This document shows positions 1 to 64,000 of a stretch of DNA of 64,000 nt, one piece after another. Each line of letters starts with the position of its first letter. Positions within the stretch are counted from its first letter, which is position 1. The notes under the pieces were generated by a model. It made no database searches. It was given only the letters and a program-made list of their open reading frames with translations, and was not told the DNA's origin. Source of the stretch: Nitrospira sp. (GTDB taxonomy: Bacteria; Nitrospirota; Nitrospiria; Nitrospirales; Nitrospiraceae); contig CP060502.1 of the NCBI GenBank assembly GCA_024760545.1, forward strand, positions 62,001-126,000, read 5' to 3'. Made by a program: the position numbers and the translations under genes.

Positions 1-630
1 GGACCGCTCTTGTTCATGGCGCTGATGACGACCTCTGTTGTCATCAGCCCGCTTCCCGATCTCCCCCTGGTTATCGCTGCTGGCGCCACTTTCGGAACGA
101 TACTGGGAACAACCTACTCCGTCATCGGTGCAGAGATCGGCGCGATTGCGAGCTTTCTCATCGGACGCACGTTGGGGCAGGAGATCCTCACCAAACTGCT
201 GCGGACCAATGTTGTATTTTGCGAACGATGTTCGGACCGCCATCTGGCGATCTTTGTTCTGCTGGCCCGGCTGGTCCCGCTCTTCTCGTTCGACGTGATC
301 AGTTACGGCGCCGGCTTGACGAACATGTCCCTCCGGACCTTCGCCCTGGTTACTTTCGTGGGGATGATTCCGCCGACGTTCGCGCTGACCTATGCCGGCA
401 GTCAAGTGATTTCAGGCGCGTGGCTGATGATTCTGTCGGGGACGGCCATGGTGACGGTGATGCTGCTCCTGCCGAAGCTGGTGCTCCGCTACCCCACGGC
501 GCGCTGGGTTCGTTTGCTGCGCGGCGACATGCCGGTGGCGGCTCACGTCCATCTTGCACCCGGCCAGCCGGGATGTCCTGTTGTAGACGGTGCCCCACGA
601 TGCGATTCCTGTGGGGGACCACTGACCTAG
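1..630 (+). CDS. TVP38/TMEM64 (DedA-like) membrane protein, 5' partial
   Basis: The reading frame is open from the first base, so the N-terminus is probably outside the window; the first ATG inside is at base 10. The product is a hydrophobic multi-pass protein with several membrane segments and the family-type core around ARLVPLFSFDVISYGAGLT followed by a GMIPPTFALTYAG segment, as in SNARE-associated (DedA/TVP38) proteins. The C-terminus ends in a Cys-containing tail (CPVVDG..RCDSCGG) that could bind metal. A second member of the family lies at 4011. Members act in the inner membrane; some are thought to be lipid scramblases or transporters, but the substrate cannot be read here. The family call is confident; the function is not. 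Confidence 0.82.
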   Translation, partial: GPLLFMALMTTSVVISPLPDLPLVIAAGATFGTILGTTYSVIGAEIGAIASFLIGRTLGQEILTKLLRTNVVFCERCSDRHLAIFVLLARLVPLFSFDVISYGAGLTNMSLRTFALVTFVGMIPPTFALTYAGSQVISGAWLMILSGTAMVTVMLLLPKLVLRYPTARWVRLLRGDMPVAAHVHLAPGQPGCPVVDGAPRCDSCGGPLT

Positions 631-48074: not shown

Positions 48075-48564
48075 CAGCAGTTGTTTGATCGACCTCAGGA
48101 AGGCCTCATTGCTCAATGCGTTCTTGAGCCTACCATACGAGATATGTATCCCTAATACACTGTTCGAGGAGGAGTTGCTCAAATTTACCGCCGCTCAGAA
48201 GGAAGCCCTGGTCCAGGGTGGGTTAAAAGTGATCGATATACCAGGTCCAGGTGTGCTGCGCGCGCAGGAAGTCATTCGCGCCAAGCCACGCCTCTCCATT
48301 CATGACGGGTTTGTCTTTGCACTGGCCGAGAGTCACCAGGAATCCATCTTGGTAACCGGTGACGGCGGTCTCAAGGCACTCGCTATACGACACGGCATTG
48401 AAGTTCACGGCCTGCTCTGGGTTGTGGATCAAATTCATATCCATGGGTTTCAAAACGCAACAGCACTGGCGACCACATTGCGCGTACTTGCGGACGATAC
48501 TTCTGTAAGACTTCCGCGTCGCGAGTTGTTGGCGGCGATCCGGCGCTATGAGAGCAAGGGATAA
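48055..48564 (+). CDS. PIN-domain ribonuclease-like protein
   Basis: A 169-residue PIN-domain protein. Acidic residues that would bind metal are D7 (IIVSDSSCLIDL), a Glu near residue 38-40 (LFEEEL), D84 (SIHDGFVFALAE) and D102 (LVTGDGGLKALA). PIN proteins usually act as RNases in toxin-antitoxin modules. It overlaps the end of the XRE-ImmA gene by 20 bp and is thus coupled to it. With the XRE protein as antitoxin it would match known Xre-COG2856/PIN-type modules. No other toxin is seen. Confidence 0.82.
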   Translation: MRIIVSDSSCLIDLRKASLLNAFLSLPYEICIPNTLFEEELLKFTAAQKEALVQGGLKVIDIPGPGVLRAQEVIRAKPRLSIHDGFVFALAESHQESILVTGDGGLKALAIRHGIEVHGLLWVVDQIHIHGFQNATALATTLRVLADDTSVRLPRRELLAAIRRYESKG

Positions 48565-48697
48565 GAGTTGCTGCAAAAATGAGATTCCTCCCCTCAATTG
48601 AGCTGACCCCCAATCCTTGGAAGAGTCAGATTCGACAGGGTAGCTTGCTGCTGTCTGGTTTGCCATTCCTAATCCGGCGAGCGGTTCCCATGCGGTA

Positions 48698-48735
48698 GGG
48701 GTCATTCGCCGATTCTGCCAAAATTATACGCTGAC
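48698..48735. repeat. candidate Tn3-family terminal inverted repeat
   Basis: A 38-bp segment opening GGGGTCATTCGCC and closing ACGCTGAC sits at the 3' end of the transposase fragment, overlapping its stop codon. Tn3 family elements have 38-bp ends that begin GGGG and place tnpA next to one end, so this is likely the end of an old element. The partner end was not found. Confidence 0.6.
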
Positions 48736-49030
48736 GGTTGAGTAGAGAACCGGGTAATTCGTGTATCGGTCTGATGGTCGGGCTTGACACCTCTATCTGT
48801 GGGCCAAATGTAATCTCCGGTCAAACTGATATGGGACCACGCCAGCGGGGACAGGTGAGTGGCCCGTTCTTCTAGAAATCGCAGTTTGAGTGCGTGCAGC
48901 TTCTCCACGGCGTGTTCGAGATAGACGGTATTCCACAGCACAATCCCCGCCACCACGAGATTGAGGCCACTGGCCCGATAGCGCTGATCCTCGTAACTGT
49001 GTTCACGGACTTCCCCGAGACGATATCCCG
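48702..49030 (-). pseudogene. Tn3-family transposase, C-terminal remnant
   Basis: YRLGEVREHSYEDQRYRASGLNLVVAGIVLWNTVYLEHAVEKLHALKLRFLEERATHLSPLAWSHISLTGDYIW is the C-terminal part of a Tn3-type transposase (the RASGLNLVVAxIVLWNTVYL and LSPLxWxHIxLTGDYxW segments). About 110 residues remain of a protein near 1000, so it is dead. The frame is open on to 49139, but that extension is not transposase. It lies beside a 38-bp Tn3-type end and before the WYL gene, so the defence genes to the right may once have been Tn3 cargo. Confidence 0.8.
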
Positions 49031-49128
49031 CCTCTGCGGGGATAGTACGGTCGAATGAATTGTGGCAAGGTAAGGCCCTACGGGGATCATCCAGGTCGCT
49101 GGGGATCGAACTGCGCCGAGGAGGGGCC

Positions 49129-50112
49129 ATGCCACGCAACGATCAAGTCACGCGCCAGTGGCACTTGCTGCAGCGGCTGAGCGGGGCACGTCACGGGCTT
49201 ACGCTGGCTGAGCTTGTGGACGCGATCCCGCCGGACCTCACCCGGCATCCTCGCACAGTCCGTCGGGATTTGGCCGCCCTCGAAGCCTCGCACTTCCCCC
49301 TCCTCACCGACCGGGTGAACGGGGAGGTGCGTTGGCGCTTGCTCGACGGCTTCAAGAATATTCCGAGCCTCCGCCTGTCCCCGCCGGAATTGATGGCCCT
49401 GGCCTTCAGCCGGCAGTTGCTGACGCCACTCCAAGGGACGCTCATTGCGGCCTCGCTCAATTCCGCGCTCACGAAGATCACCGCAGCCATCCCGGCGGGG
49501 GCCACTGAGTATCTCCTGCGGCTGGACCAGTGGTTTTCCGTCGGGCTAGGTCCGCACAAGACGTACCGCCACCATCGCGAGACGATCGATAGGCTCTCCC
49601 AAGCGATCGCTCATCACCATACGGTGCAGATGCGGTATTTCTCGGCAGGACGCCACGCGACCACCCGGCGCGAAGTGGATCCGTACCGGCTGCGATATGT
49701 TGACGGCGGGCTCTACCTGATTGCCTATTGCCATTGGCGCAAGGACGTGCGGATGTTTGCGGTGGAGCGGATCAAGTCGCTCACCATGACGGACCATCCC
49801 TACCAAATGCCGCTCCACTTTGATCTCGATGCCTATGTCGAAGACACCCTCGTCGTCATGCGGGGAAAGCGGATCACGGTCGAAATCAAGTTCGATAAGG
49901 CCACGGCCGCCTGGGCGAAAGACCGCATCTGGCATCCCAGCCAGCAGGCGACGCCGCTTAAGAACGGCCAACTGCTCATGACGCTCTCAGTGGCGGACAC
50001 GAGAGAACTGCTTGGATGGATCCTCAGCTTTGGCAGTGGGGTTCAAGTCCTGAAGCCTGACCATCTCCGGTATGCCGTTAAAGAGGAAGCCCAAAAGCTC
50101 CTGGCCCAGTGA
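49129..50112 (+). CDS. WYL-domain helix-turn-helix regulator
   Basis: A 327-residue regulator: N-terminal winged helix (LQRLSGARHGLTLAELVDAIPPDLTRHPRTVRRDLAALEASHFPLL, about 12-60). The WYL domain follows (about 140-220: VQMRYFSAGRHATTRREVDPYRLRYVDGGLYLIAYCHWRKDVRMFAVERI). The C-terminal extension (residues 230-327) is the WCX-type domain. WYL regulators often control defence loci, including BREX, as BrxR does. It starts behind GAGGAGGGG, upstream of the AddAB-like and BREX genes on the same strand. That it governs those genes is inferred. Confidence 0.85.
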   Translation: MPRNDQVTRQWHLLQRLSGARHGLTLAELVDAIPPDLTRHPRTVRRDLAALEASHFPLLTDRVNGEVRWRLLDGFKNIPSLRLSPPELMALAFSRQLLTPLQGTLIAASLNSALTKITAAIPAGATEYLLRLDQWFSVGLGPHKTYRHHRETIDRLSQAIAHHHTVQMRYFSAGRHATTRREVDPYRLRYVDGGLYLIAYCHWRKDVRMFAVERIKSLTMTDHPYQMPLHFDLDAYVEDTLVVMRGKRITVEIKFDKATAAWAKDRIWHPSQQATPLKNGQLLMTLSVADTRELLGWILSFGSGVQVLKPDHLRYAVKEEAQKLLAQ

Positions 50113-50141
50113 CCTCAGATGTCACACCGCGGCTGATGACG

Positions 50142-50178
50142 CTGGCAGCCTGGTCCGTCTAACTCACAGTGCTGCCAG
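50142..50178 (+). terminator. hairpin after the WYL gene
   Basis: Perfect 8-bp stem CTGGCAGC (50142-50149) and GCTGCCAG (50171-50178) with a 21-nt loop, followed by AATTTT. A likely terminator separating the WYL regulator from the genes downstream. Confidence 0.5.
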
Positions 50179-50274
50179 GGAATTTTGCCAAACCCGCTTT
50201 GACCTGCCTTGGGACCTCTCCTGTCCTTACCTCCTCGTAAGATGTGCGCGATCAAGCCCAAGCAGGAGGTGTCC

Positions 50275-50706
50275 ATGACACTCGCGTTGATTCTGCTCCC
50301 GGTACTGATGCTAGTGACAAGCGAGGCCCATGCTGAGGATCTGGGCAATTTGAGTGCGAATCCGTTTCTCTTCGAGTCCACGGCCAACTCGCTGGGGCAG
50401 GGCAGTCCCTTTGCGCCAAACGGTGTGAACAATCCGTTCAGCCCCTACGGCAGTCCATTCAGTAACCAATCGGCGACCAACCCTTTCGCGACCGACGCGC
50501 CCAGGCTCTATGACCAACAGGGAAATTACCGGGGTAAGCTGAGCGCGAGTCCCTTTGATCCAGATTCCACGAGCAACCCGTATGGCCGATACGGTTCACC
50601 CCTTTCGCCGGACTCGTTGAACAATCCCTATGGGGCCGGGAGTCCGTTCAGGCCCGATTCCCCGAAGAATCCGTATGGGCAGGGTTGGCGAATTGAAGGG
50701 AACTGA
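50275..50706 (+). CDS. exported N-P-F/Y repeat protein, unknown
   Basis: A 143-residue protein with a signal peptide (MTLALILLPVLMLVTSEAHA). A low-complexity mature part is built of NPF/NPY, SPF and DS repeats (SANPFLFES, NNPFSPYGSPFS, SNPYGRYGSPLSPDSLNNPYGAGSPF). Similar proteins are widespread in bacteria as hypothetical genes. A strong GGAGG precedes the ATG. It follows the WYL gene and lies before the 50.9-51.3 kb intergenic element. It has no obvious link to defence. An exported, possibly surface-associated or structural role is speculative. Confidence 0.65.
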   Translation: MTLALILLPVLMLVTSEAHAEDLGNLSANPFLFESTANSLGQGSPFAPNGVNNPFSPYGSPFSNQSATNPFATDAPRLYDQQGNYRGKLSASPFDPDSTSNPYGRYGSPLSPDSLNNPYGAGSPFRPDSPKNPYGQGWRIEGN

Positions 50707-50708
50707 TC

Positions 50709-50909
50709 GTGTCGGATGCGGAAGAGAAAACTAGGCGACCGTTCATTCGAGGCGCGATTCTCGGCAGGCTTATCACGGGCGGGCTTACGGTGGCCGGCAC
50801 CTTCTATGATTTCAAAGGCCAACCGGCGGCACCCCGCGGCAGTGCCCAGCAGTTCGACGACATCCGGCAGCGGCAGCACCAATTGGACATCACGCACATG
50901 CGGGAGTAA
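50709..50909 (+). CDS. small protein, unknown (weak)
   Basis: A 66-residue frame with a GTG start and a GAAGGG site 7 bp upstream: SDAEEKTRRPFIRGAILGRLITGGLTVAGTFYDFKGQPAAPRGSAQQFDDIRQRQ. It has one short hydrophobic stretch (LITGGLTVAGTFY). It begins 2 bp after the N-P-F/Y repeat gene, which supports co-transcription. No family is recognised. Confidence 0.4.
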   Translation: MSDAEEKTRRPFIRGAILGRLITGGLTVAGTFYDFKGQPAAPRGSAQQFDDIRQRQHQLDITHMRE

Positions 50910-51265
50910 CAGGACCGAGAGGCGCTCGATCGTAGACGTGGTACAAACCCATGCTGAGCAATCCCGCATGCGGTGGAGACGTCAGCGCAACGGCGGTTTG
51001 TCGCGAGGATCACGTTCGAGGCTGTCTGGCTAAGGTGCCCAAGATGGACAAGGTCCCGATGAGCGCTTGGAAGGATGACTGCAGCTCGGAAGGCGAAATA
51101 GCGAATGACTGCGGTTGTAAACAGAGGTATTCTGCGATGTGAGGCGCGCGGTGCGCAGGATATCCGATGCGCGAAAGGAATGCCGTGGTCGCCGGTTTGT
51201 GTCACCGGCGGAATTTGGTAATTGCGTAACGTGAACACGCACTTCTATCTGAACGAGTTCATCAC
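50910..51265. other. intergenic region with leader copy 1
   Basis: A 356-bp stretch with no supported gene upstream of the nuclease gene. It carries the first copy of the diverged repeat (50968-51137), whose second copy is upstream of brxA. ORFs crossing it on the minus strand look like chance frames. Confidence 0.6.
50968..51137. repeat. defence leader repeat, copy 1 (170 bp)
   Basis: Begins ATGCGGTGGAGAC and ends GAGGTATTCTGCGA (51124-51137). In between it shares scattered blocks (GGTTTGT, GCGAAAT.GC, TGACT.CG.TTG) with the 57085-57249 copy in the same order. It ends 128 bp before the AddB-like start codon. No protein is evident in it. Confidence 0.7.
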
Positions 51266-53896
51266 ATGAAGGTTGTGTTTGGACTTCAATTAGATGGGGA
51301 ACATGGCTGGCGGCCGGCCAATCGATTGGGAATGCCAGTCCTTGGCCCGCTCGGGTTCCTGAACCTGCTTGAGACCAGGCTTGGATTGCTGCGAGCGGAA
51401 TGTAGCCAGGCTCAACGAACAACTCAGTATCGAGAATGTCTCACTCGCGGCGACACCCCCGATCGCTTCTACCATGCCTCGTTTCAGATTGATCCTATCG
51501 GAGTCTCTGCAGCACTCCTGTCATGGCGTGATACGTGGCATCTCCATGGATGGACCGGCACGGCGCCTACTGGAGCGGGCAATCGTCTTACCGATCTGGC
51601 TGCCGTGGAAGAGACCGCCCATAATCTCCTATTTCCATCGATTGGAGAACGACTGGCTCAAGTGACCGAGTCTCTCTCGAAACAACAAGCGAAGATCGAA
51701 CACATTGAGTTAGCCGATCCCATCGAGGCATTCCCGAAGCGCTGGCGGGAAGTCCTCGCAAAGTTGCCGGTCCAATCTCGACGAACCTATGAACCTCAAG
51801 CGTCCGAACACACCGTTCTGGGGAAGCTTCAACGGGTCCTCACGGTGGCCCATGAGGGCAAGAATCCCAATGGGAAGGTTGCCTGGTCGGACGATGGGAG
51901 TCTCTTCGTGGTGCGCGCTGAGACCAGTCTGCTTGCTGCACGGTGGGTCGCTCAAAGACTTGTCGCGCACCAGCAGGAGGTGGCGATTGTCGCCGAGCAT
52001 GACCGCTCCTTACTGGATGCTACGATAGACGCCACGGATGTAGCCCGGCAGGGATTTCAGGATGCGAGCCCGTTGGCCCCGGCGCTTCAAGTGTTGCCCC
52101 TTGCGCTCGCGACAATGTGGGAACCGCTGGATGTCTACGCCCTCCTTGAATTGCTCTCTCACCCCATAGGACCTGTCCCAGGGTATCTCCGAGGGCGATT
52201 GGCTGAGGTTCTTGCGGAAAGCCCTGGAATCGGTGGACCGCATTGGCGGGACGCGGTCGAACACCTTGAGCGGCAGTATCCGGATCGTGTTGCGGATATG
52301 CGCGAGGCCCTGGCCGTGTGGGTCGAGCACCCTCGGTATCGCCCTGCGGAGGGTGCGCCTTTCGCGATGATCCTCGAGCGCACCCGGCGCGTTCGCGACT
52401 ACTTTCGGTCCGGCCTGTACGATCAGAACTCTGTTCTCAGTCAGGCGCATGCCAGTGGATACAGGCAAGCTATGGCGGTGGCTGCCGCCCTTGAAGCGTT
52501 GGTTGCTCAAGGGGAAACCTCCATCACACCCGTTGCGGTTCAAACACTGGTGGCTCAATGCACAGGGCGCGGCGCACCAAACTTCACGATGGATGCGCAG
52601 GTCGGCTGTGTGCCTTCTGTCTTTCACCCTGCCGCAGTGATCGAATCGTTTGATCAGGTGGTGTGGTGGCAGATGGGAGCACCCTCGCTGCCTGACCGCT
52701 ATCCGTGGAGCCGCAGCGAACTGGACATGCTCTCGCGCACCGGAGTCGAACTGCCGCCTCTTGATACGGTTCTGGCCCATCAAAGCCAGGAGTGGCTTCG
52801 TCCCATCCTCAGCGCCCGAAACCAGTTGGTGCTGGTACTGCCTCCTCCCGGTGCGGAATTGCACCCGATTTGGCTCGAAATGCAGGGGCTCATCAGCGAT
52901 CTCCGGCCGGAACTGCTCGAAGCCCTGATATCTAGTCAGGCAGGAAGAGACCTACAACACGTGGCCCATGCGCCGCTCCCGCAACGGAGGCGATGGTGGC
53001 AGCTCCCACGTGAGGTCACCATTGCGCGTCGGGCCAGTGAGTCCTATTCAAGTCTCAACCTATTCCTCAATGCGCCCCACCAATGGGTCTTGAAGTACGC
53101 GGCTCGACTCAATCCATCGAATCTTCTTGCCGTGACGGATCGGAATCGGCTCTATGGGAATCTCGCGCATCGAATCGTTGACCGATTCTTTCATGTCGGG
53201 AATGCGCATGAGCTGTGTGGGGATGCGCTGGCAGGTTGGTTGTCACAGGAATTCGAGTCTGTTGTGGCGGAGGAGGGTGCGGTCCTCCTGATGCCGGGCC
53301 GTCGTATGGATCGAGAGCGACTTCGCGCAGCGTTGGGCCGCGCGCTCGAAGAGATCCAGCGACAATTCTCTGCCGCTGGCATTGTTGAGGTCGAGTCCGA
53401 GCGCAGTTTGACCGGCACGTTTGCTGGAGGCAACCTTGAAGGGCACGCCGATCTCGTCGTGCGGAAGCCAGGGGGCGGCCAGGCCATTGTCGATATGAAA
53501 TGGGCTGGTGCCAATACACACAAGGACCGCCTCGCCAGCAATCGGCATCTGCAGCTGGCGCTCTATGCAGAGCTGTTGCGACAGGAAACAGGAACCTGGC
53601 CGGAGGTGGCCTATTTCATCCTTGAGGCGGCACGCCTGCTCGCGCTCGATGCAGCATTCTTTCCGCAGGCACACACGGTGCAATCCAACTCCACAGGGGG
53701 CACCCCGTACCTGTGGGAACAACTCGTTGCGACCTGGAGATGGCGCCGTTCCCAAATCGATGCAGGACACATCGAGATTGCCGTTGAACAGATCGCGCTG
53801 ACCCCGGAATCGGAAGCACCTCCAGGCGCCCTCGTGCCGGAAGCGCTGTCTGAAGAATATGATGAGTTCCGCTGGTTGGTTGGGTGGGAGAACTGA
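51266..53896 (+). CDS. AddB-like protein with PD-(D/E)XK nuclease domain
   Basis: An 876-residue protein. The C-terminal nuclease is recognisable: EGHADLVVRKPGGGQAIVDMKWAG (about residues 724-743), with Asp and the D-x-K core of PD-(D/E)XK nucleases, after FHVGNAHELCGDALAGWL. The N-terminal two thirds (residues 1-650) contain an inactivated-helicase-like layout without a Walker A I can identify, as in AddB. It lies 3 bp before the UvrD/AddA-like gene, so they form a pair that would bind and process DNA ends. A role in defence is inferred from the neighbourhood. A leader repeat precedes it. Confidence 0.82.
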   Translation: MKVVFGLQLDGEHGWRPANRLGMPVLGPLGFLNLLETRLGLLRAECSQAQRTTQYRECLTRGDTPDRFYHASFQIDPIGVSAALLSWRDTWHLHGWTGTAPTGAGNRLTDLAAVEETAHNLLFPSIGERLAQVTESLSKQQAKIEHIELADPIEAFPKRWREVLAKLPVQSRRTYEPQASEHTVLGKLQRVLTVAHEGKNPNGKVAWSDDGSLFVVRAETSLLAARWVAQRLVAHQQEVAIVAEHDRSLLDATIDATDVARQGFQDASPLAPALQVLPLALATMWEPLDVYALLELLSHPIGPVPGYLRGRLAEVLAESPGIGGPHWRDAVEHLERQYPDRVADMREALAVWVEHPRYRPAEGAPFAMILERTRRVRDYFRSGLYDQNSVLSQAHASGYRQAMAVAAALEALVAQGETSITPVAVQTLVAQCTGRGAPNFTMDAQVGCVPSVFHPAAVIESFDQVVWWQMGAPSLPDRYPWSRSELDMLSRTGVELPPLDTVLAHQSQEWLRPILSARNQLVLVLPPPGAELHPIWLEMQGLISDLRPELLEALISSQAGRDLQHVAHAPLPQRRRWWQLPREVTIARRASESYSSLNLFLNAPHQWVLKYAARLNPSNLLAVTDRNRLYGNLAHRIVDRFFHVGNAHELCGDALAGWLSQEFESVVAEEGAVLLMPGRRMDRERLRAALGRALEEIQRQFSAAGIVEVESERSLTGTFAGGNLEGHADLVVRKPGGGQAIVDMKWAGANTHKDRLASNRHLQLALYAELLRQETGTWPEVAYFILEAARLLALDAAFFPQAHTVQSNSTGGTPYLWEQLVATWRWRRSQIDAGHIEIAVEQIALTPESEAPPGALVPEALSEEYDEFRWLVGWEN

Positions 53897-53899
53897 CTG

Positions 53900-56800
53900 A
53901 TGCCTGGCAGGATCACCTTTGTCAGTGCCGGCGCAGGAAGCGGGAAGACCTACCGGCTGACGCAGATCCTTCATGACAAGCTGAGTTCGGGGCAAGTCTC
54001 GCCCAGTGGTGTCATGGCGACGACCTTTACACGGAAGGCGGCCACGGAACTGCGCGAACGAGTCCGGATCGCGCTCCTTGAGAAGGGGGAATTCGCCCTG
54101 GCTAATTCCATGGGTCAGGCACGCATCGGCACGGTCAATAGTGTGTGCGGGGGACTGCTGGAGCGATTTGCCTTCGAGGCCGGATTAGCTCCAGTGCAAC
54201 GTGTGCTTGAGGAGGCCCAAGCTGGCGCACTCGTGCGGGAAGCGCTCGATGCGGTGTCCGACTCCGAGACGGTACAGAAGATCAACTCGCTCGCTCGGAG
54301 ACTGGGCATAGACAACTGGGATGAGGAACTCACGTCGCTCATTGCCCAGGCCCGCGCAAACGATATCGCACCAGACCGTTGTGCAATCTTTGGTGCCCGC
54401 AACGCGATGGATCTGCTCGCGCACTTTCCCGCCCCGAGCGCGGAGGATCTTGATGCGGCGCTTGTTCGAACCATTGAGCGCGTGCTTCCCGACCTCGAAC
54501 AACGCGCAACCGGCAAAAAGAATACCGCCGAATACATCGCGCTGGCGCGCGACACCATACGTGTTGTGAAAAACGGTCACGCGGTCTGGGCCGATTGGGT
54601 CAAACTCTCCAAGAAAGCCCCCGAGGCAGGACTCAAGACACTGGCCCAACCAGTGACGGACATTGCGAGTCAATTTGCCGCCCATCCGCAACTGCGGCAA
54701 GAGATTGCGGCGTATCTGGCTGCCATCTTCGCGCTCGGGGCAACGGCGCTGAAGGCCTACGCCCAGAGAAAACGGGAACTGGGGGTCATCGACTTCGTGG
54801 ATCAGGAGCATCTGTTTCTTGGGTTGCTGGAACACCCCTCCGTGTGTGCCGTGCTTTCTGAGGAGTTGGAACTCCTGCTGGTGGACGAATTTCAGGACAC
54901 CAGTCCTATTCAACTCGAAATCTTTGTGCGGCTCTCACGCCTTGCGCGGGAAACAGTGTGGGTCGGGGACGTGAAACAGGCGATCTACGGATTTCGGGGC
55001 AGTGACGCCGAACTGATGAAAGCCGTCATTGGACATCTGCCCAGTCTCGGAGGCACCAAAGAGATTCTCGGACAATCCCGCCGCTCTCGACCTTCGTTAG
55101 TCCGATTGGTGAACGCTGCGTTCAGTGCGGCCTTTTCCCCCGGACTCTCACAGGAAGAAGTAGCGCTCATGCCCGTTCGGGAGGAGCGCGTCCCCGATCC
55201 GGCCTTTGCGGTGTGGACACTCAATGGCAAGAACGTAGAGGAAAGAGCGGCCGCCCTCGCCGAAGGCATGAAAGCATTGGTCGCCTCGGGTTATCGCATC
55301 GTCGATCCCAAAACAGGCAGTCCCCGAGTCGCGCATTTTGGCGATCTTGCCGTACTCTGCAAGACCAATGATCGCGTACAGACGGTGGCGGAAGCCCTTC
55401 GCGCCGCCTCCGTGCCATGGGCCACGCAACAATCCGGACTACTCTCGACCCCTGAGGCCGTACTGGCTCTTGCCTGCCTTAGACGGCTGAATGATCCGAG
55501 GGACACCGTGGCCAGTGCTGAGATCCTGTCGCTGGCAGACTGTGAGGAACCGGAGACCTGGCTGGCCGATCGGTTGCGATATCTGGAACACGATGGGGAC
55601 AAGGCACGGTGGCGGGATGGGGGCAAGGACGGGCATCCGCTGCTGACGAGAATTACAGAGTTGCGTGCGCAGGCACCCTTGCTGTCGCCGTATGCGGCGA
55701 TGGAGCTGGTCATCACGCAATGTGATCTCGCCGGCAGGGTCCTACGTTGGCGGCGGGACGAACTTGTGGCGAGAGTGCGTCTGGCCAACCTGGAGGCGTT
55801 GCGAAATATGGCACGATCCTATGAGGAGACCTGCCTGGCACGACGCGAACCGGCGACCTTGTCCGGCCTGATCCTCTGGTTCGGGGAGCAAGCACAGATG
55901 GAACTCGACATCCTCGCCGAGCCACCTGTTGATGCGGTGAAGGTCATGACCCATCATGCGGCCAAAGGTTTGGAGTGGCCGATTGTCATTCTCCTGGATG
56001 TGGAGAAAGACATTCGGGATCGGCTGTGGTCGGTGAGTACTCGGTCTGATACAAGCCTTGATGTGGGCGCCCCGCTCAAGGACCGGTGGATCCGCTATTG
56101 GCCCTGGCCGTTTGGGGCACAAAAGAAAGTTGAGATAGCCGAGGCGATCGCTCAATCCCCGGACGGGATCCGTCTACGAGCGGAAGCGATGGATGAGGCC
56201 AAGCGTCTTCTCTACGTGAGCATGACCCGGGCGCGGGACTTCCTCGTGCTCGGATTTCCGGAAAAGAGAGGAGATTGCGAATGGCTGGGAGCATTGAATG
56301 TGCCGTGGCTCGCACCAGAGAGTGCGAGAGACTCGGTTGATCTGCAGGATGGCTCCACGATTCCATTTCAGTACCGGAGTCTTCAGGCTCCTAGTGTGAT
56401 GACAGCCACGGTGGAACCAGATGTGGCCCTTCGATGGTTTCCCGTTCCTGCCTCGAGCACGGAACGCCTGCCGGCCACCTTTGCCGCGTCGGCTTCCGTC
56501 CGTCACCCATGCACAATTGTGGAAACCCTGCCACTTGGAGAACGGCTCAAGCTGAAGGCGGGAATCGACATGACGGCATTGGGCAATGCCATTCATGCTT
56601 GCATGGCAACCGCATTCACCGACCCAGACTGCCCAATCGACGAGACTCGGGCAGCACGCATCCTCAATGGTTTTGGCTTATCCGGTGCGGTCGATCCTAC
56701 CGAGCTTGTGCGGCAGATTGGCGCTATTGATCAGTGGATAACCGCTCGTTGGCCTGATTGTCGCCGACATGCAGAGATGCCCATCGAGTCAATTCTCTCG

Positions 56801-57043
56801 AACGGTCAAATCATGCAGGGGCGAATCGATCTGTTGCTGGATGGACCAGATGGGTGGGTGGTGTTCGACCATAAGGCCAATCCAGCATCCAGAGACAAAT
56901 GGAATGAAGTTGCCACCGAACACAGTGGGCAATTGTCCATGTACGCCAATGCACTGGTCCGTACGACCGGACGCTCAGTCAAAGAAGCCTGGATTGTTCT
57001 GCCGGTCGCGGCCGGAGCAGTTCGAATATCGATAGGCGAGTGA
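53900..57043 (+). CDS. AddA-like UvrD-family helicase-nuclease
   Basis: A 1047-residue superfamily-1 helicase with SAGAGSGKT at 9-17 (Walker A), ATTFTRKAATELRERV (motif Ia), LLVDEFQDTSPIQ at about 327 (Walker B), WVGDVKQAIYGFRGSD (motif III), VMTHHAAKGLEWPIVIL (motif V) and YVSMTRARDFLVLG (motif VI). A C-terminal PD-(D/E)XK domain reads GRIDLLLDGPDGWVVFDHKA at about 975-993. This is the AddA architecture. It follows the AddB-like gene by 3 bp and precedes leader repeat copy 2 and brxA. Confidence 0.88.
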   Translation: MPGRITFVSAGAGSGKTYRLTQILHDKLSSGQVSPSGVMATTFTRKAATELRERVRIALLEKGEFALANSMGQARIGTVNSVCGGLLERFAFEAGLAPVQRVLEEAQAGALVREALDAVSDSETVQKINSLARRLGIDNWDEELTSLIAQARANDIAPDRCAIFGARNAMDLLAHFPAPSAEDLDAALVRTIERVLPDLEQRATGKKNTAEYIALARDTIRVVKNGHAVWADWVKLSKKAPEAGLKTLAQPVTDIASQFAAHPQLRQEIAAYLAAIFALGATALKAYAQRKRELGVIDFVDQEHLFLGLLEHPSVCAVLSEELELLLVDEFQDTSPIQLEIFVRLSRLARETVWVGDVKQAIYGFRGSDAELMKAVIGHLPSLGGTKEILGQSRRSRPSLVRLVNAAFSAAFSPGLSQEEVALMPVREERVPDPAFAVWTLNGKNVEERAAALAEGMKALVASGYRIVDPKTGSPRVAHFGDLAVLCKTNDRVQTVAEALRAASVPWATQQSGLLSTPEAVLALACLRRLNDPRDTVASAEILSLADCEEPETWLADRLRYLEHDGDKARWRDGGKDGHPLLTRITELRAQAPLLSPYAAMELVITQCDLAGRVLRWRRDELVARVRLANLEALRNMARSYEETCLARREPATLSGLILWFGEQAQMELDILAEPPVDAVKVMTHHAAKGLEWPIVILLDVEKDIRDRLWSVSTRSDTSLDVGAPLKDRWIRYWPWPFGAQKKVEIAEAIAQSPDGIRLRAEAMDEAKRLLYVSMTRARDFLVLGFPEKRGDCEWLGALNVPWLAPESARDSVDLQDGSTIPFQYRSLQAPSVMTATVEPDVALRWFPVPASSTERLPATFAASASVRHPCTIVETLPLGERLKLKAGIDMTALGNAIHACMATAFTDPDCPIDETRAARILNGFGLSGAVDPTELVRQIGAIDQWITARWPDCRRHAEMPIESILSNGQIMQGRIDLLLDGPDGWVVFDHKANPASRDKWNEVATEHSGQLSMYANALVRTTGRSVKEAWIVLPVAAGAVRISIGE

Positions 57044-57333
57044 TGTGCAGGAACGTAATCTGAAGGCATGAATATATATAACGGATGCGGTGGAAACATC
57101 CGAGCAGCGGAGGTTTGTGTGCAGGAACGGTTGTCGCCCAGTAGGCGCGGGGTTCAAGAGCACCAAGCATCCAATGGCCGTGTGTAACGAAAGTTGACGG
57201 GAAAGCGAAATGGCAAGTGACTTCGCTTGCGAATGGAGGTATTCTGCGACGAGGTGATCTTGCAACGATATCAAACAGTTCCATATAGGGGTGACCAGAT
57301 CTTCCTATCCCATGCCATTGAATCTGGTAGTGC
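57044..57333. other. intergenic region with leader copy 2
   Basis: A 290-bp gap between the AddA-like gene and brxA. It contains the second copy of the diverged repeat (57085-57249). I see no convincing protein gene in it, although several short frames run on the minus strand. Confidence 0.6.
57085..57249. repeat. defence leader repeat, copy 2 (165 bp)
   Basis: Begins ATGCGGTGGAAAC and ends GAGGTATTCTGCGA (57236-57249), matching copy 1 at both ends and in several internal blocks. It ends 84 bp before the brxA start. Confidence 0.7.
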
Positions 57334-57969
57334 ATGTTGACCATAGCTGATTCGATGAAAACGGCCGAACTTACTGAAAGACACTATGGAGCAGAACTCA
57401 CAGCTGGGTCCTTAAAAGTTCCAGAGAGTCGGATTATTGCAGATCTGCTTCTCCGAGGCGTCGCGCCAGAAGAATGGCAGGAGACACTCTATAAACAGAA
57501 TGCACTCCAAACCCGTAACCTTGAGACAGCGAGGCGACTGGGCCGACTGATCCGACAAAGACTGGAGTTGATGGATGCCGAGCTCTGGCGGCTTATTCGT
57601 GATGGCTCAAAGACCGTGGCTACGCACGCGTGTCTCGCGGCTGCCATTAAGCATAGTGCCTTGCTGGGAGACTTCTTAGATTTGGTCATCAGGGAGCAAT
57701 ACCGACTCTTTGCCTCAACACTCTCACCAACACTCTGGGAAGGGTATCTGAATGACTGTCGAGGCCGTGACTCTCTGATGCCGCTCTGGAACGACTCGAC
57801 GAGGAGACGCTTGCGATCGACAGTGTACCAAACCCTTGCACAGGCAGGATTTCTAGACGGCACACGAACGCTACGGCTTCAACCAGTCCATATCGCCTCC
57901 GAAGTGCTTGGTTATTTGCGGGACCACCATGAAGAGTATGTGCTGCGTTGCATTCAGGTGTCTCCGTGA
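57334..57969 (+). CDS. brxA: BrxA (DUF1819) of type 1 BREX
   Basis: A 211-residue alpha-helical protein with the DUF1819 pattern: TAGSLKVPESRIIADLLLRGVAPEEWQETLYKQNALQTRNLETARRLGRLIRQRLELMDAELWRLI, then HSALLGDFLDLVIREQYRLF, ending LGYLRDHHEEYVLRCIQV. BrxA is a small DNA-binding component of BREX. The ATG at 57334 lacks a clear ribosome site; an ATG at 57355 is an alternative. The brxB start overlaps its stop (GTGA). Confidence 0.85.
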   Translation: MLTIADSMKTAELTERHYGAELTAGSLKVPESRIIADLLLRGVAPEEWQETLYKQNALQTRNLETARRLGRLIRQRLELMDAELWRLIRDGSKTVATHACLAAAIKHSALLGDFLDLVIREQYRLFASTLSPTLWEGYLNDCRGRDSLMPLWNDSTRRRLRSTVYQTLAQAGFLDGTRTLRLQPVHIASEVLGYLRDHHEEYVLRCIQVSP

Positions 57970-58580
57970 GTGATCTGCTGACCGACCGGCTTAACAAGAT
58001 TCTTCCACGGATCATCTCAGATGACTTCCTGAGCGGCAGCGGCATCGGGAACGAGATTTCTTTCTACATTTTTGACTACCCGCCTGAAGAGGAGCTCCGA
58101 GTACGAGCTCACCTTCGTTTCTTAGTAGACCACATTCCCAAACAAAAACCAGAGCTTCGTTTCACGCACATCAACCTGTTCGATCTCGTGCTGGACCACC
58201 TCAAGCGCCGGAAATTGCTCGAGAAGGCACTACAGATACAACGGGAGAAGGGTGACGAAGCTCTCAAGGCGGCGTTGGCTGGCCCCCTCCATCCTGAGAA
58301 GCTCGCATCGATCTTTTGTGAAGTGGCCAGGCCGGATCAGATCAAGCTTGTCCTGGTGTCAGGTGTCGGAAGCGTGTATCCGCTACTCCGAACCAGCGGC
58401 TTGCTCAGTAATCTGCAGAATGTGATGGGACCCATTCCTCTCGTGCTGTTTTATCCAGGAAAGTACGATCAACTGACCCTCAGACTATTTGGGAAGCTGA
58501 GCCTGTCCGCACACTTTGACGGTGTAGCAAAGAGCAAGAAGCCGGAACATTATTACCGCGCCTTCAGATTAGTGCCCTAA
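57966..58580 (+). CDS. brxB: BrxB (DUF1788) of type 1 BREX
   Basis: A 204-residue protein with the DUF1788 signature: LLTDRLNKILPRIISDDFLSGSGIGNEISFYIFDYPPEEELRVRAHLRFLVDHIP, then LVLVSGVGSVYPLLRTSGLLSNLQNVMGPIPLVLFYPGKYDQLTLRLFGKL and the C-terminal HYYRAFRLVP. It starts at a GTG that overlaps the brxA stop. It precedes brxC by 12 bp. BrxB is essential in known type 1 systems, but its enzymatic role is unclear. Confidence 0.9.
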   Translation: MSDLLTDRLNKILPRIISDDFLSGSGIGNEISFYIFDYPPEEELRVRAHLRFLVDHIPKQKPELRFTHINLFDLVLDHLKRRKLLEKALQIQREKGDEALKAALAGPLHPEKLASIFCEVARPDQIKLVLVSGVGSVYPLLRTSGLLSNLQNVMGPIPLVLFYPGKYDQLTLRLFGKLSLSAHFDGVAKSKKPEHYYRAFRLVP

Positions 58581-58592
58581 CAGAGGCTGACT

Positions 58593-61500
58593 ATGAACAT
58601 TCAGAATCTCTTCGAGCGAGACCTGTTCCGCTCCATCAACGGAGTCGTCAAGGCGGATCAGTTGGACGAATCGTCCGTCTGGCAGGAGTTGGACGAATTC
58701 GTGGTGACAAGAGAGCTCGATCAGCATCTCCGCCGCTTTTTCTCGACGTATGGTGATGCGATCAAGCATCCCCAAGATCCCGATGTCGCAGGGAAGATTG
58801 GCGTGTGGGTGTCAGGCTTCTTCGGGTCCGGCAAATCACACTTTATTAAGGTTCTTTCCTACCTTTTGCAGAACAAGACCCATACGCATCAGGGGCAGAC
58901 TAAGCGGGCGGTCGAGTTCTTCGAGAACAAGTTCAAAGATGCCATGCTGTTTGGTGACATCAAGCGAGCGATTGCCTCGAATACCGATGTCATCCTGTTC
59001 AACATTGACAGCAAGGCCGACCACCGCATTGGGCGCGATGCCATTCTTGCCGTGTTTCTCAAAGTACTGAACGAGATGCAAGGCTATTGCGGCGATTATC
59101 CTCAGATCGCGCACCTGGAACGCCATTTGGAAGGGAGAGGTAAGCTCACACAGTTCCATGACGTCTTTCGCAAGGCGACGGGTAGCGAGTGGGTGGCAGA
59201 CCGTGACGCCTACCATTTTCACCGGGACGAAATCGTAAAAGCGCTCGGCGAAACGCTAAAGATGAGCAAAGAGTCGGCGGAGAAGTGGGTCGATGGGGCG
59301 GAAGGCAGTTTTGCCTTAACCGTCGAAAACCTCTGTAAATGGGTCAAGGAGTATCTGGACTCGAAGGGAGAAGAGCATCGTCTTATTTTCTTGGTCGATG
59401 AAGTGGGGCAGTTCATCGGGACAGATTCCCACCTGATGCTGAATCTTCAGACCATTACCGAAGAGCTGGGAACTATCTGCAAGGGGCGTGCATGGGTCGT
59501 TGTCACTTCCCAAGAAGATATTGATGCTGTGCTAGGGGAAATGAAACAGAGCAAGGCCAACGACTTCTCGAAGATTCAGGGACGCTTCCGGACGCGCCTC
59601 TCACTCTCAAGTGCCAACGTCGATGAAGTGATCCAGTCTCGCCTTCTGGCTAAACGTGAAGAGGTCAAAAGCGACCTCCAGGAAGTCTTCCGAAAAAAAG
59701 GGGACATTCTCAAGAATCAGCTCACGTTCACCAATTGCGGAATGACCTTCAAGAACGTCAAAGATGGCGAGGATTTCGTCCAGAACTATCCATTCGTGCC
59801 GTATCAGTTCCAGCTCGTCCAAAAGATTTTCGAGGCGATCCGAAGAGCGGGGGCCACCGGTCTGCACCTATCCCGCGGCGAACGATCAATCCTCGATGCG
59901 TTTCAGTCGGCTGGCAAGGAGGTTGCTCTCAAAGAGGTCGGTATCCTAGTCCCTCTCTATCGGTTCTACCCTTCGATCGAAAGCTTTCTTGATACCGTCG
60001 TCAAGAAGACCATCGATCAAGCCAAGGACAATCCGAGTCTGGAGCATCCCTTCGATATTAGCCTTCTGCAGGTATTGTTTCTCATCCGCTATGTCGAGGA
60101 GATCAAGGGGAACGTCGATAACCTGGTGACCCTGTGCATCGCCGAGATTGATGCTGACCGACTGGCGCTTCGTCGCAAGATCGAAGGGAGCCTTCAGCGT
60201 CTCGAAAAGGAAACGCTCATTAATCGAAGTGGTGATCTGTATTTCTTCCTGACCAACGAAGAACGGGACATCAATCGGGAGATCAAGAATGTCGAACTCA
60301 GTAGTGGCGAGGAAGCCAAGCTCCTTGGAGAACTCATTTACAACGATGTCTTGAAAGAACAGCGAAAGCATCGCCATGCCGAGAATAAGATGGATTTTGC
60401 CTTCAATCGCTTCTGCGATTTGCTTCCGGTTGGAAATCGTCTCGACGGCGTATTACAGCTCTCGGTTATTACGCCACTGAATGATGAATACGGGTTGTAC
60501 GACAATGCCAAATGCCTTCTGGACAGCTCTACCGAAGGCGGCAGCATTCTGGTCCGCATGGGCAATGACGAGACTCTGGGCCGCGAGCTTCGGACATACC
60601 TTCAGACTGAGAAGTATGTTCGCCATAAGAATGATGGCACACTTCCGGAGTCGGCGAAGCGCATTCTCCGCGACATATCCGGAAACAACCAAGACCGCCG
60701 AGCCCGTCTAGTCACACTCTTAGGCGAGATGTTCGCCGGAGCCGACTTCTATGCTGCCGGCCAGCCCTTGAAGCTGAAAGCCTCCATGCCATTGGCCGCA
60801 CTCGACGAGTCGCTGGGGTATCTCGTCAAGAACACCTTCAATAAGATGGGGTACCTGAAGCGGCTGTCTCAGGAGCCATTGAAGGAAATTCAGGCCATCA
60901 TTCGGAGTAACGACATCGGTCAGCAGACGCTGGTCATGGCAACCGAGGAGGGGAACAAGCAGGCGATAGATGACCTACGCAATTATGTTGCCTTGATGTC
61001 ATCCAATAATAAGCAGGTCGTACTCCAAGACATGATCGACAAGCGGTACTCCCTGCGTCCGTATGGGTGGCCGGAAGAAGAAGTGGTGATCCTGATAGCC
61101 CGTCTCATGGTGCTGGGCGAAATCAGTCTCATGATGGATGGGACACTGGTTCCGCTCGATAAGGCCTACGACGCCATCACGACCCCTGCAAAACGTCGAA
61201 AGATCGTGATTCTCAAGCGGCAAACCACCGACCCTAAAGCCATTCAAGACGCCCGCACACTGGGGAAAGAATTGTTTCATGAGATGGGACCTGATGGCGA
61301 GGATGCCCTGTTTGCATTCCTGCAGAACAAGCTCAAGAGCTGGCAATCATCCTTGATGACCTACAGGCCGTTGGCGGAAACCGGCGATTACCCCGGAAAA
61401 GACCAGATCGCCGACGGGCTCCTGCGTGTGAAGAAGCTGCTCGCTTCCGATAACAGTTATAAGTTCATCCAGCAACTCAACGAACAGAAGAATGAACTTC

Positions 61501-62174
61501 TCGATTTCGCTGATCACTTTACCAATCTCGAACAGTTCTACGAACACCAAAAGTCCACGTGGGAAAGGTTACGGAAGGCGCATGGCCGTTTTCAGCGAAA
61601 TCGCCTTGAGCTTGAGAGAGATGCGCTGGCTGGAATGGCGCTCAAACGGATGCAGCAAATCCTGAACGCGTCGAGTCCGTACAGCCTGATCAAAGAGACC
61701 GAGGGGCTCATTGCCACAGTCAGTACCATTAATAGCGCCCTCGTGGCTGCAGCTCGCCAGCAGGCTCTTGCCAAGATTGACGTGCATCTCGTCACAGTCA
61801 CCAGGGATATTGAGGCAGCCAAGGGAGACGCAGGACTTCGCGCTGCCTGCATGAGGCCACTGGAAGAACTTAAGGGCGCAGTCCAGTCTGAAGAGAGTCT
61901 GGCTCACATCACACAAATAGAGACGGAGGCTCTGAAAGAATTCGATCTTGCAACCTCTCGGATAGAAGAATCTGTTCGGAAAGCCACAGAGCAGCCCAAG
62001 GAAAAAGGAGAGCAGCCCAAGCCTATTCTCAAGAAGAAACGGGTAGTGGAGCCGGCCAAGCTGGTCGCATCTCCCTATTTGGAAACGCAGGCGGATGTCG
62101 AAGCATTTCTTAAGACACTGCGATCGGAGTTGGAGCAGGCACTCACTAAGGACGAACGCATCGAGATCCGCTGA
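58593..62174 (+). CDS. brxC: BrxC P-loop ATPase of BREX
   Basis: A 1193-residue ATPase with the N-terminal P-loop GFFGSGKSHF (75-84) and a Walker B-like HRLIFLVDEVGQFIG at about 265-280. It also has AWVVVTSQEDID and a long C-terminal half rich in coiled coils, ending in Lys/Glu-rich segments (KEKGEQPKPILKKKR). This is the large ATPase of type 1 BREX and is usual in length. The upstream gene is 12 bp away and pglX starts 23 bp downstream. Confidence 0.93.
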   Translation: MNIQNLFERDLFRSINGVVKADQLDESSVWQELDEFVVTRELDQHLRRFFSTYGDAIKHPQDPDVAGKIGVWVSGFFGSGKSHFIKVLSYLLQNKTHTHQGQTKRAVEFFENKFKDAMLFGDIKRAIASNTDVILFNIDSKADHRIGRDAILAVFLKVLNEMQGYCGDYPQIAHLERHLEGRGKLTQFHDVFRKATGSEWVADRDAYHFHRDEIVKALGETLKMSKESAEKWVDGAEGSFALTVENLCKWVKEYLDSKGEEHRLIFLVDEVGQFIGTDSHLMLNLQTITEELGTICKGRAWVVVTSQEDIDAVLGEMKQSKANDFSKIQGRFRTRLSLSSANVDEVIQSRLLAKREEVKSDLQEVFRKKGDILKNQLTFTNCGMTFKNVKDGEDFVQNYPFVPYQFQLVQKIFEAIRRAGATGLHLSRGERSILDAFQSAGKEVALKEVGILVPLYRFYPSIESFLDTVVKKTIDQAKDNPSLEHPFDISLLQVLFLIRYVEEIKGNVDNLVTLCIAEIDADRLALRRKIEGSLQRLEKETLINRSGDLYFFLTNEERDINREIKNVELSSGEEAKLLGELIYNDVLKEQRKHRHAENKMDFAFNRFCDLLPVGNRLDGVLQLSVITPLNDEYGLYDNAKCLLDSSTEGGSILVRMGNDETLGRELRTYLQTEKYVRHKNDGTLPESAKRILRDISGNNQDRRARLVTLLGEMFAGADFYAAGQPLKLKASMPLAALDESLGYLVKNTFNKMGYLKRLSQEPLKEIQAIIRSNDIGQQTLVMATEEGNKQAIDDLRNYVALMSSNNKQVVLQDMIDKRYSLRPYGWPEEEVVILIARLMVLGEISLMMDGTLVPLDKAYDAITTPAKRRKIVILKRQTTDPKAIQDARTLGKELFHEMGPDGEDALFAFLQNKLKSWQSSLMTYRPLAETGDYPGKDQIADGLLRVKKLLASDNSYKFIQQLNEQKNELLDFADHFTNLEQFYEHQKSTWERLRKAHGRFQRNRLELERDALAGMALKRMQQILNASSPYSLIKETEGLIATVSTINSALVAAARQQALAKIDVHLVTVTRDIEAAKGDAGLRAACMRPLEELKGAVQSEESLAHITQIETEALKEFDLATSRIEESVRKATEQPKEKGEQPKPILKKKRVVEPAKLVASPYLETQADVEAFLKTLRSELEQALTKDERIEIR

Positions 62175-62197
62175 GAAGAGATCATGAGATTGGCAAT

Positions 62198-64000
62198 ATG
62201 AACCGCACCAAGCTCAAGACCTACGCCCCACAAGCTCGCCGGGATTTCATCCAGGCTGTCACAGATCGCGCTGCCTTCTATGGTCTGACTGAGAAGAAGA
62301 TCGAACCCATCACCGAGAACGGCGACGTGGCTATTATCGGTGGCCGCGCCTTTCCTCGCGCTATTGCGAGCAAACGCAAAGCCTTGGAAGAACGGATTGC
62401 CCAATACGGCTTCGGGCAGACCATGGACGCAATTGCCTACACCTGGTTTAACCGCTTGGTCGCTATCCGGTACATGGAACTGCATGGGTATCTTGACCAT
62501 GGCTACCGGGTACTGACCCATCCCGACGCATCGAAGTCGATTCCTGAGATCCTCGAACAGGCCGAACATCTCGATCTGCCGGGCTTGGACAAGCACAAGG
62601 TTATTGAGCTGAAATTGGAAGGCAGCAAAGAAGCTGAGCTGTACCGGATGCTGCTACTCGCTCAGTGCAACGCGTTGTACAAGACGATGCCGTTTCTCTT
62701 TGAGTGGATCGACGACGAAACAGAACTCCTCTTGCCCGATAACCTGCTCCACACAGACTCGCTGATCCGCAAGCTCGTCGGCGAGATCGACGAAAACGAC
62801 TGGCAGGAGGTCGAGATCATCGGCTGGCTCTACCAGTTCTACATCGCCGAGCGCAAAGACGAAGTTATGGCCCGCAAGAGCGCCGTGCCGACGGAAGACA
62901 TTCCGGCCGTCACCCAGCTCTTCACCCCGCATTGGATTGTCCGTTACCTTGTCGAGAACTCGCTCGGCCGCCTCTGGCTGCTGAACCGCCCCGGCTCCCG
63001 GCTTCGTGAGCAGATGCCCTACTATATCGAGGGGGAAACTGAGACCGACTTCCTCAAGATCACCAAGCCTGAGGACATCCGCCTGTTAGACCCCGCGTGC
63101 GGAAGCGGGCACATGCTCACCTATGCCTTCGACCTGCTCTTCCGTATCTACGAGGAAGAAGGCTACGTGCCAAACGAGATTCCTGCGCTCATCCTGAAGC
63201 ACAATCTCTATGGTCTGGAAATCTGCCCCCGCGCGGCGCAGCTCGCCGAGCTGGCCCTCGTCTTCAAGGCCCGGGAAAAATCACGGCGCTTCTTTCAGCC
63301 CAGCACTCTTGTTCAGCCCCACATTCTTGCATTGCAAGACATCCGCTTCGACGAAGGCGAACTCCGCGACTACATCGCAGCGCTCGAACTCGGCACTCTC
63401 TTTAATGAGCCCATGCTGAAACTCCTACATCAGTTCGAGCAAGCCACCACCTTTGGTTCGCTCATTCAGCCCTGCCTGGACGAACAGAACATCACCTTTG
63501 CCCGTCAGGCCATGAAGACCAAAGACCTCGGCGGCCAGCTCTTTCTCCGTGAGACTCACGGCAAAGTCCTCCGCGTCTTGGAACAGGCGGAGATGTTGTG
63601 CCAGAGGTATCACGTTGTCGTGGCCAATCCGCCATATATGGGCGGGGGAGCGATGAATCCTCTTCTCAAAGAATATGTGAAGAAACATCTGACTTTGAGT
63701 AAACAAGACCTAATGACGTGCTTTATGCAGCGGGCAACAACGTTGGCAGTCCCCTTTGGCACGATAGCAGTAATTAATCTTCCCTCTTGGCTTTTTCTTT
63801 CTTCTTTTGAAGCCTTCAGAATCTACCTCATAGCAAATGAGACCATCTCCAGTTTGCTACATCTTGGGCGCGGTATATTCGGCTCAGATTTCGGGACGGT
63901 TGCGTTTGTGCTCAAGAATTGCCCGGCAAACGGACGCAAGGGGATTTATCGAAGGCTTTTTGAACGGCATGTTGAGGTCGATTCAGTGAATGAAATAGAG
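62198..64000 (+). CDS. pglX: PglX (BrxX) N6-adenine methyltransferase, 3' partial
   Basis: The frame starts at 62198 and is open for 601 codons to the window edge. A full PglX is about 1100-1200, so only about half is present. N-terminal helices (LKTYAPQARRDFIQAVTDRAAFYGL) precede the SAM motif DPACGSGHM (298-306) and the catalytic NPPY at 477-480 (VVVANPPYMGG). It is the DNA methyltransferase that marks self DNA in BREX. Completion, and the expected pglZ and brxL, would lie beyond the window. Confidence 0.93.
   Translation, partial: MNRTKLKTYAPQARRDFIQAVTDRAAFYGLTEKKIEPITENGDVAIIGGRAFPRAIASKRKALEERIAQYGFGQTMDAIAYTWFNRLVAIRYMELHGYLDHGYRVLTHPDASKSIPEILEQAEHLDLPGLDKHKVIELKLEGSKEAELYRMLLLAQCNALYKTMPFLFEWIDDETELLLPDNLLHTDSLIRKLVGEIDENDWQEVEIIGWLYQFYIAERKDEVMARKSAVPTEDIPAVTQLFTPHWIVRYLVENSLGRLWLLNRPGSRLREQMPYYIEGETETDFLKITKPEDIRLLDPACGSGHMLTYAFDLLFRIYEEEGYVPNEIPALILKHNLYGLEICPRAAQLAELALVFKAREKSRRFFQPSTLVQPHILALQDIRFDEGELRDYIAALELGTLFNEPMLKLLHQFEQATTFGSLIQPCLDEQNITFARQAMKTKDLGGQLFLRETHGKVLRVLEQAEMLCQRYHVVVANPPYMGGGAMNPLLKEYVKKHLTLSKQDLMTCFMQRATTLAVPFGTIAVINLPSWLFLSSFEAFRIYLIANETISSLLHLGRGIFGSDFGTVAFVLKNCPANGRKGIYRRLFERHVEVDSVNEIE

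Follow-up and report, generated by a model that had tools for sequence, protein, structure and literature searches.

A putative portable promoter motif precedes an AddAB-like pair, a BREX operon and other defence operons in Nitrospira

Two look-alike elements precede an AddAB-like nuclease-helicase pair and a type 1 BREX operon in a 64,000-nt stretch of a Nitrospira sp. genome (GCA_024760545.1; contig CP060502.1, positions 62,001-126,000, forward strand), hereafter the window. Both elements exist, and their resemblance far exceeds what chance would give. Judged from alignment and translation, they are composite, each joining a gene tail at its 5' end to a promoter-like motif at its 3' end. The shared 3' part is probably a sigma70-type promoter of about 60 bp, reused before many unrelated Nitrospira defence operons and moved or retained when operons are exchanged. 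The reading which best accommodates the data is that of a portable promoter, its regulatory positions conserved, which would persist through changes of cargo, of vehicle and of chromosomal site. Defence systems are usually studied singly, each with its own regulator. If our reading is correct, a newly gained system placed behind such a common promoter would be expressed at once and co-regulated, and the motif offers a sequence tag for finding more defence operons in Nitrospira.

Results

A first-pass annotation of the window had described noncoding elements at 50968-51137 (copy 1) and 57085-57249 (copy 2) as a single shared unit of some 170 bp. Both segments are present there, with the end blocks ascribed to them; copy 1 ends 128 bp before the AddB-like start at 51266 and copy 2 ends 84 bp before brxA at 57334. 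Their global alignment contains 109 identities in 170 columns and scores 151, against 50.1 +/- 8.0 in 1000 dinucleotide shuffles, the control used for all such alignments (z 12.6; 0 of 1000 reach it). The copies also surpass their shuffled counterparts once the 10- and 14-nt end blocks are removed (z 8.1; 0 of 1000). By part, z is 7.0 for the first 50 nt and 8.8 for the last 62 nt; the middle is not clearly beyond chance (z 1.7, its score being reached by 60 of 1000 shuffles). The proposed likeness is thereby upheld, while the proposed unity gives way to a gene tail and a promoter-like motif that have been joined, and the label "noncoding" does not hold for the 5' block, which is a phosphatase gene's 3' end in degenerate form. 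A check for many scattered copies, unrelated to defence genes, returned only these two in the genome itself (4.81 Mb, two contigs) by both blastn and the model R1 introduced below. Searched by itself with 1 mismatch allowed, the 14-nt end block has three matches in that genome and its control has two, which places the third match at chance level.

As the alignment of its relatives indicates, the last ~60 nt of each copy is a conserved motif comprising [A/G]TGACT, 17 nt and TATTCT, with further conservation upstream, in the spacer and in the discriminator. The motif of copy 1 occupies 51080..51140 (+ strand, as for all window features below), with a predicted -35 hexamer ATGACT at 51105-51110, a 17-nt spacer and a predicted -10 hexamer TATTCT at 51128-51133; it was placed by the logo and by R1 (E 3.1e-12). 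That of copy 2 occupies 57192..57252, with a predicted -35 GTGACT at 57217-57222, the same 17-nt spacer and a predicted -10 TATTCT at 57240-57245; it matches the search pattern with 0 mismatches and R1 at E 2.1e-14. Both copies are themselves rows of that model.

The search for relatives covered 79 genomes of the genus Nitrospira and 96 from other genera of its family (175 together), and a blastn search with copy 2 covered 196 genomes. The latter returned 17 other places, 13 of them in the 3' part and bearing the motif; the four without it (L012, L015, L017, L019) were dropped. The pattern TGACTTCGNNNRNRAATGNAGGTATTCTG, allowed at most 3 mismatches, occurs at 23 sites in 15 of the 79 Nitrospira genomes and its reversed control at none. 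Neither motif nor control was found in any of the 96 genomes from other genera. Two further, diverged sites in fetched contigs bring the total to 25. R1, a sequence-only model, was made together with alignment A2 from 22 of these 25 sites, both window copies included. It recovers 24 sites at E < 1e-10, missing G018b (sites are named by genome), and adds one truncated relic (G016:C102:148319); three matches near E 0.01 (G010, G050, G006) were taken as chance. Among public records, 12 of 13 stretches carrying the motif belong to Nitrospira sp., and the sole exception (Lachnospiraceae, L048) was likewise attributed to chance. Copy 2 had no blastn match in a plasmid collection, nor did the exact motif pattern match any viral contig.

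From -26 to +34 in coordinates relative to the motif, all 25 sites can be aligned gap-free and give a clear logo; the logo and the letter counts below use 21 non-redundant sites, four near-duplicates having been removed. Across these the hexamers are near-invariant and stand 17 nt apart, within the 16-18 nt of sigma70-type -35/-10 pairs. Non-consensus letters number 3/231 in TGACT/TATTCT and 70/357 in the 17-nt spacer (Fisher p 3e-13 for hexamers against spacer), 198/546 at -26..-1, 56/147 at 28..34 and 385/651 far upstream, so that conservation fades around the expected transcription start. A same-strand open reading frame (ORF) starts inside the motif or within 300 bp of it at 21 of the 23 listed sites; at the exceptions, G016a and G001b, the first long frame begins at +967 and +495, respectively. 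Position, hexamers, spacing and graded conservation together favour the duplicated promoter module which the first-pass annotation had entertained, and a bound protein is suggested by the conservation of the spacer and of the stretch upstream.

The motif heads a defence or nuclease-helicase operon at 23 of the 25 sites, some of these operons being degenerate and several broken or interrupted by contig ends. Their cargo spans BREX, type I and type III restriction-modification (RM), DrmD- and DruE-like helicases, AddAB-like pairs, a C5 methylase and TIR-pAgo. Twelve sites have direct family matches (Pfam/PADLOC) within the operon: BREX behind window copy 2, type I methylases (G064a, G056c), a DruE-like protein (G031a), DrmD-like proteins (G031b, G018b), a type III methylase preceded by a broken gene (G016a), a type I R fragment (G004a), a C5 methylase followed by DruE (G196a), and TIR-pAgo as the second and third genes behind a first gene without a match (G057a). 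The remaining direct matches are PDC-S02 (G056b), which we take to be of the DUF1016/YhcG type, and PDC-S05 in a second ORF (G056d). Six further sites were assigned by homology to those cargoes (G024a, G016c, G001a, G001b, G003a, G056a), four are AddAB-like (window copy 1, listed as OWN1, with G018a, G041a and G007a), and one (G016b) is a degenerate HsdM-like case read by eye.

Cargo appears to change directly behind the motif. Between -330 and +32, G024a shares 98% identity with G016b; past that point their cargo differs, that of G024a being the type III RM system of G016a; this location therefore kept its motif in a recent swap while the cargo changed right behind it. DrmD-like cargo at loci with FtsX-like and CinA-like neighbours has sequence in common only from about -8 onwards, and what sets G018a and G041a apart from G007a is a stretch of ~150 bp whose end falls near -9. 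Within G056, shared sequence extends to +34, +39 or +66 among G056a, b and c. Under hand-assigned classes, motif identity averages 0.66 for the same cargo with a different neighbour, 0.69 for the same neighbour with a different cargo and 0.615 for neither; within one genome it is 0.68, against 0.62 otherwise (25 of 2000 label shuffles reach this). The motif nearest to copy 1 is copy 2 (0.72), and those nearest to copy 2 are copy 1 and G056b (0.72 each). The swap and the identity pattern fit an exchange of modules around a retained, putative promoter.

Neither cargo nor vehicle explains where the motif occurs. AddB homologs were found in six places in five genomes, four of which follow the motif (window, G018, G041, G007); the two diverged relatives (68-69%) in G057 do not, and a motif intrinsic to AddAB was rejected since two of six AddB loci lack it. 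A motif intrinsic to a relaxase element was rejected as well, the relaxase occurring in 31 of 79 genomes and beside the motif at five loci. Upstream neighbours vary: besides the relaxase at five loci, they include a permease (FtsX-like, by eye) at four, a CinA-like gene (by eye) at two and an MgtE_N-like gene at three (Pfam for one, likeness for the others). Loci L059, L060, L069, L070 and L077 are elements with a MobA/VirD2-like relaxase, several also with a tyrosine integrase, and the relaxase genes of this family often carry internal stops. G016b and G024a (L065, L075) have, ahead of the motif, what appears by eye to be a HicA-like toxin gene, in a stretch 85-86% identical in G031, G040 and G076.

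The 5' block has a separate origin. In copy 1 it occupies 50961..51017, starting 7 nt before the element as first annotated, and reads IPHAVETSAQRRFVARITF; in copy 2 it occupies 57075..57125, ~32 bp past the AddA-like stop, and reads YITDAVETSEQRRFVCR. In G196, a genome of the same species, this block forms the 3' end of a still intact gene for a 159-aa protein-tyrosine-phosphatase (PTPase)-like protein, which ends ETSEQRRFVGKIRF and matches Pfam PF22785 and PF22784. Translation and tblastn with the G196 protein (E 5.8e-4 for copy 1, 0.005 for copy 2) indicate that the window keeps only the last 17-19 PTPase codons, degenerate at both copies and with the stop codon lost in copy 1. Remnants of the same tail precede the motif in G057, G018a and G041 (tblastn, the latter two weak), and a likeness at the DNA level only was seen in G018b, G031b and G001b. 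That comparison used a 39-nt tail seed assembled by eye, chiefly from G001b and G031b, whose scores are consequently circular, and chance places in the same contigs match it at up to 24/39. In G056 a different tail, by eye the end of a helicase-like ORF, is repeated before four motif copies, in two of which it is joined behind an apparent RadC gene end (by eye). The two window copies would thus share a 5' block because some promoter-operon modules keep a scrap of their former upstream neighbour, the PTPase gene here and in several relatives and a helicase-like gene in G056.

Within the window, copy 1 is followed by an AddB-like PD-(D/E)XK protein (51266..53896; PF12705 E 2.1e-20) and an AddA/UvrD-like helicase-nuclease (53900..57043; PF00580 E 6.3e-44, PF12705 E 2.7e-8), the TIGR02785 match of the latter lying far under the family cut-off. 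Behind copy 2, the type 1 BREX operon brxA-brxB-brxC-pglX (57334..64000; Pfam/PADLOC) extends beyond the end of the window, where pglZ and brxL follow; these two genes score above cut-off for TIGR02687 and TIGR02653. G018 repeats this layout as element, AddAB, element and SNF2 helicase. Small proteins flank the AddAB-BREX block on both sides (50209-50706, and G000:C2:132489-132908, L079, beyond the window); they are alike by eye (DLGNLSANPF / DLGELSANPF ... NPYG), and the former has no family match. Elsewhere, 46977-48564 encodes an HTH-IrrE/M78 protein (PADLOC RmrA-like) and then a PIN-like protein that matches PDC-S70 weakly. Beyond the window, in the same island, G000:C2:142695-145747 contains by eye a TIR-pAgo pair resembling the TIR and pAgo proteins of G057a.

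Discussion

On the reading we prefer, the motif would be a promoter of about 60 bp in which a conserved A/G-rich stretch lies upstream, the spacer is conserved and the discriminator is rich in G+C. Transcription would initiate at the motif, a regulator of the host or of the element would read the spacer and upstream positions, and defence modules would have accreted one behind another. Several observations weigh against this reading. A consensus promoter scan misses the motif, which has 8 of 12 matches (4+4) at a threshold of 9, and the single site it found in the region compares with 2.1 in shuffles. No significant dyad was detected (best span 0.73; column permutations gave a mean of 0.67 and a 95% point of 0.79), and hence no operator is demonstrated. 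At two of the 25 sites the genes behind the motif have no match to defence families (G013a, with DUF4184, and G056e, with no PADLOC match), and the large ORF of G056a has no PADLOC match. Recent common descent may account for part of the conservation, motifs being closer within the same cargo or the same upstream neighbour (as classified by hand). The recovery of 24 of 25 sites by R1 is no independent test, 22 of them having built the model. Direct repeats inside the motif, which were listed with no control beside them, are left out of account.

The abrupt change of cargo also invites the view that the motif is a recombination site, at which a trans-acting recombinase docks defence operons, its promoter-like appearance being secondary or doubling as an outward promoter. 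The cargo switch of G024a and G016b within a few nt of the right edge of the motif accords with this, as do the DrmD-like likeness beginning at -8 and the G018a/G041a difference from G007a ending near -9. Modules also stand in tandem, two in the window and in G018 and three in one G056 contig (L072, G056:C358), whose joints carry RadC-like and helicase-like gene tails (by eye). Tyrosine integrases belonging to a single similarity cluster are present on 7 of the 20 contigs that were compared; four members of the cluster lie ~8 kb upstream of the motif, and one is confirmed by PF00589. However, none of these integrases adjoins the motif on the 20 contigs, the motif has no inverted arms above chance, and junctions vary from about +20 in the G016 relic and +33 in G024a to +34, +39 and +66 among G056a, b and c. 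The left breakpoints in gene tails vary too, and a scan of the fetched contigs that tolerated up to 8 mismatches turned up no additional copy that would convincingly mark where a module ends on its right. We consider this explanation unlikely. A combination, in which whole defence operons would be swapped behind one standard outward promoter and expressed at once under one regulator, in an integron-like manner but without a resident integron integrase (none was searched for), has an outside chance. In either form, the motif may control Nitrospira defences or help in swapping them.

The first-pass annotation had proposed a common regulator, naming the WYL-WCX protein at 49060..50112 (PF13280, PF25583), and the motif sites could form the regulon of this one dedicated factor, acting like BrxR on its own promoter. 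Upstream of the motif, the gene lies ~1 kb away in the window and 3.4 kb away in G196. In Acinetobacter, BrxR binds over a promoter at -51 to -27 (PMC9122589), and the corresponding region is conserved here too. Among the motif genomes, 10 of 15 have an ortholog (at least 58% identity), as have 23 of the 64 that lack the motif (Fisher p 0.04, uncorrected for ancestry). Against this, G007, G004, G018, G013 and G057, which are 90-99% complete, have no ortholog, G018 and G057 holding only relatives of 31-33%; within a few kb of the motif the gene occurs only in the window and in G196, is not near the motif in other species, and is next met on a motif contig ~35 kb away. Nor was any inverted repeat above chance, of the ~10-nt half-sites of BrxR/WYL operators, found in the motif. 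This protein is a candidate only, and we regard its sole control of the motif as rather improbable. As an obligatory partner it was rejected on the five of 15 genomes without an ortholog, where another WYL protein may still serve.

In favour of neutral leftovers of a mobile-element end, or of the dispersed genomic repeat mentioned by the first-pass annotation, five sites adjoin relaxase genes and several lie on contigs with integrases. Yet the hexamers are almost invariant while neighbouring positions vary, the window's own genome has only two copies, most relaxase loci lack the motif, and the plasmid and viral searches described above were negative; we judge this explanation very unlikely. 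An RNA element, also raised earlier, finds no support: the copies fold with z of -0.3 to -1.0, RNAalifold predicts 0 pairs over 22 motif sequences, and Rfam gave no match up to E 1 within 48000-64000. In favour of a leader peptide, A or G precedes TGACT in 20 of the 21 non-redundant sites, such that most copies begin ATG or GTG, and this frame continues into the DrmD-like protein at G031b, G016c and G001a. However, changes show no excess at third codon positions (28, 35 and 23 of 210) and the frame of G056b stops at codon 4. A structured RNA leader or leader peptide is accordingly the explanation to which we attach least credence, as barely credible.

Relation to known systems

In the accessible portions of the open-access literature (subscription papers and preprints lay outside our scope), we found no report of a shared defence promoter of this kind. 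Integron cassettes with attC sites form tandem modules, each with a short repeat in the same orientation. The modules described here are alike in both respects, but the motif has no folding signal, and large operons take the place of single genes.

The promoters regulated by WYL proteins of the BrxR/CapW type (PMC9122589) resemble the present case in that a BREX operon is preceded by a promoter whose conservation covers the -35 hexamer and positions upstream of it, and a WYL-WCX gene lies nearby in the window genome. Here, by contrast, the same sequence stands before a range of unrelated systems spread over many loci, there is no inverted repeat above chance, and the WYL ortholog is absent from 5 of 15 motif genomes. 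Control of RM systems by C proteins and shared promoters (PMC12707154) is likewise a promoter-borne control of a defence operon, but is local to one system, unlike the motif here. The defence hotspots of P4-like phage satellites (PMC9122126) exchange diverse defence cargo at a fixed spot, as appears to happen here. The passages on promoters in that paper describe native ones, not a shared one, whereas in Nitrospira a 60-bp motif is what stays constant, rather than the genes on either side, and its chromosomal locations are several, besides those next to relaxase elements.

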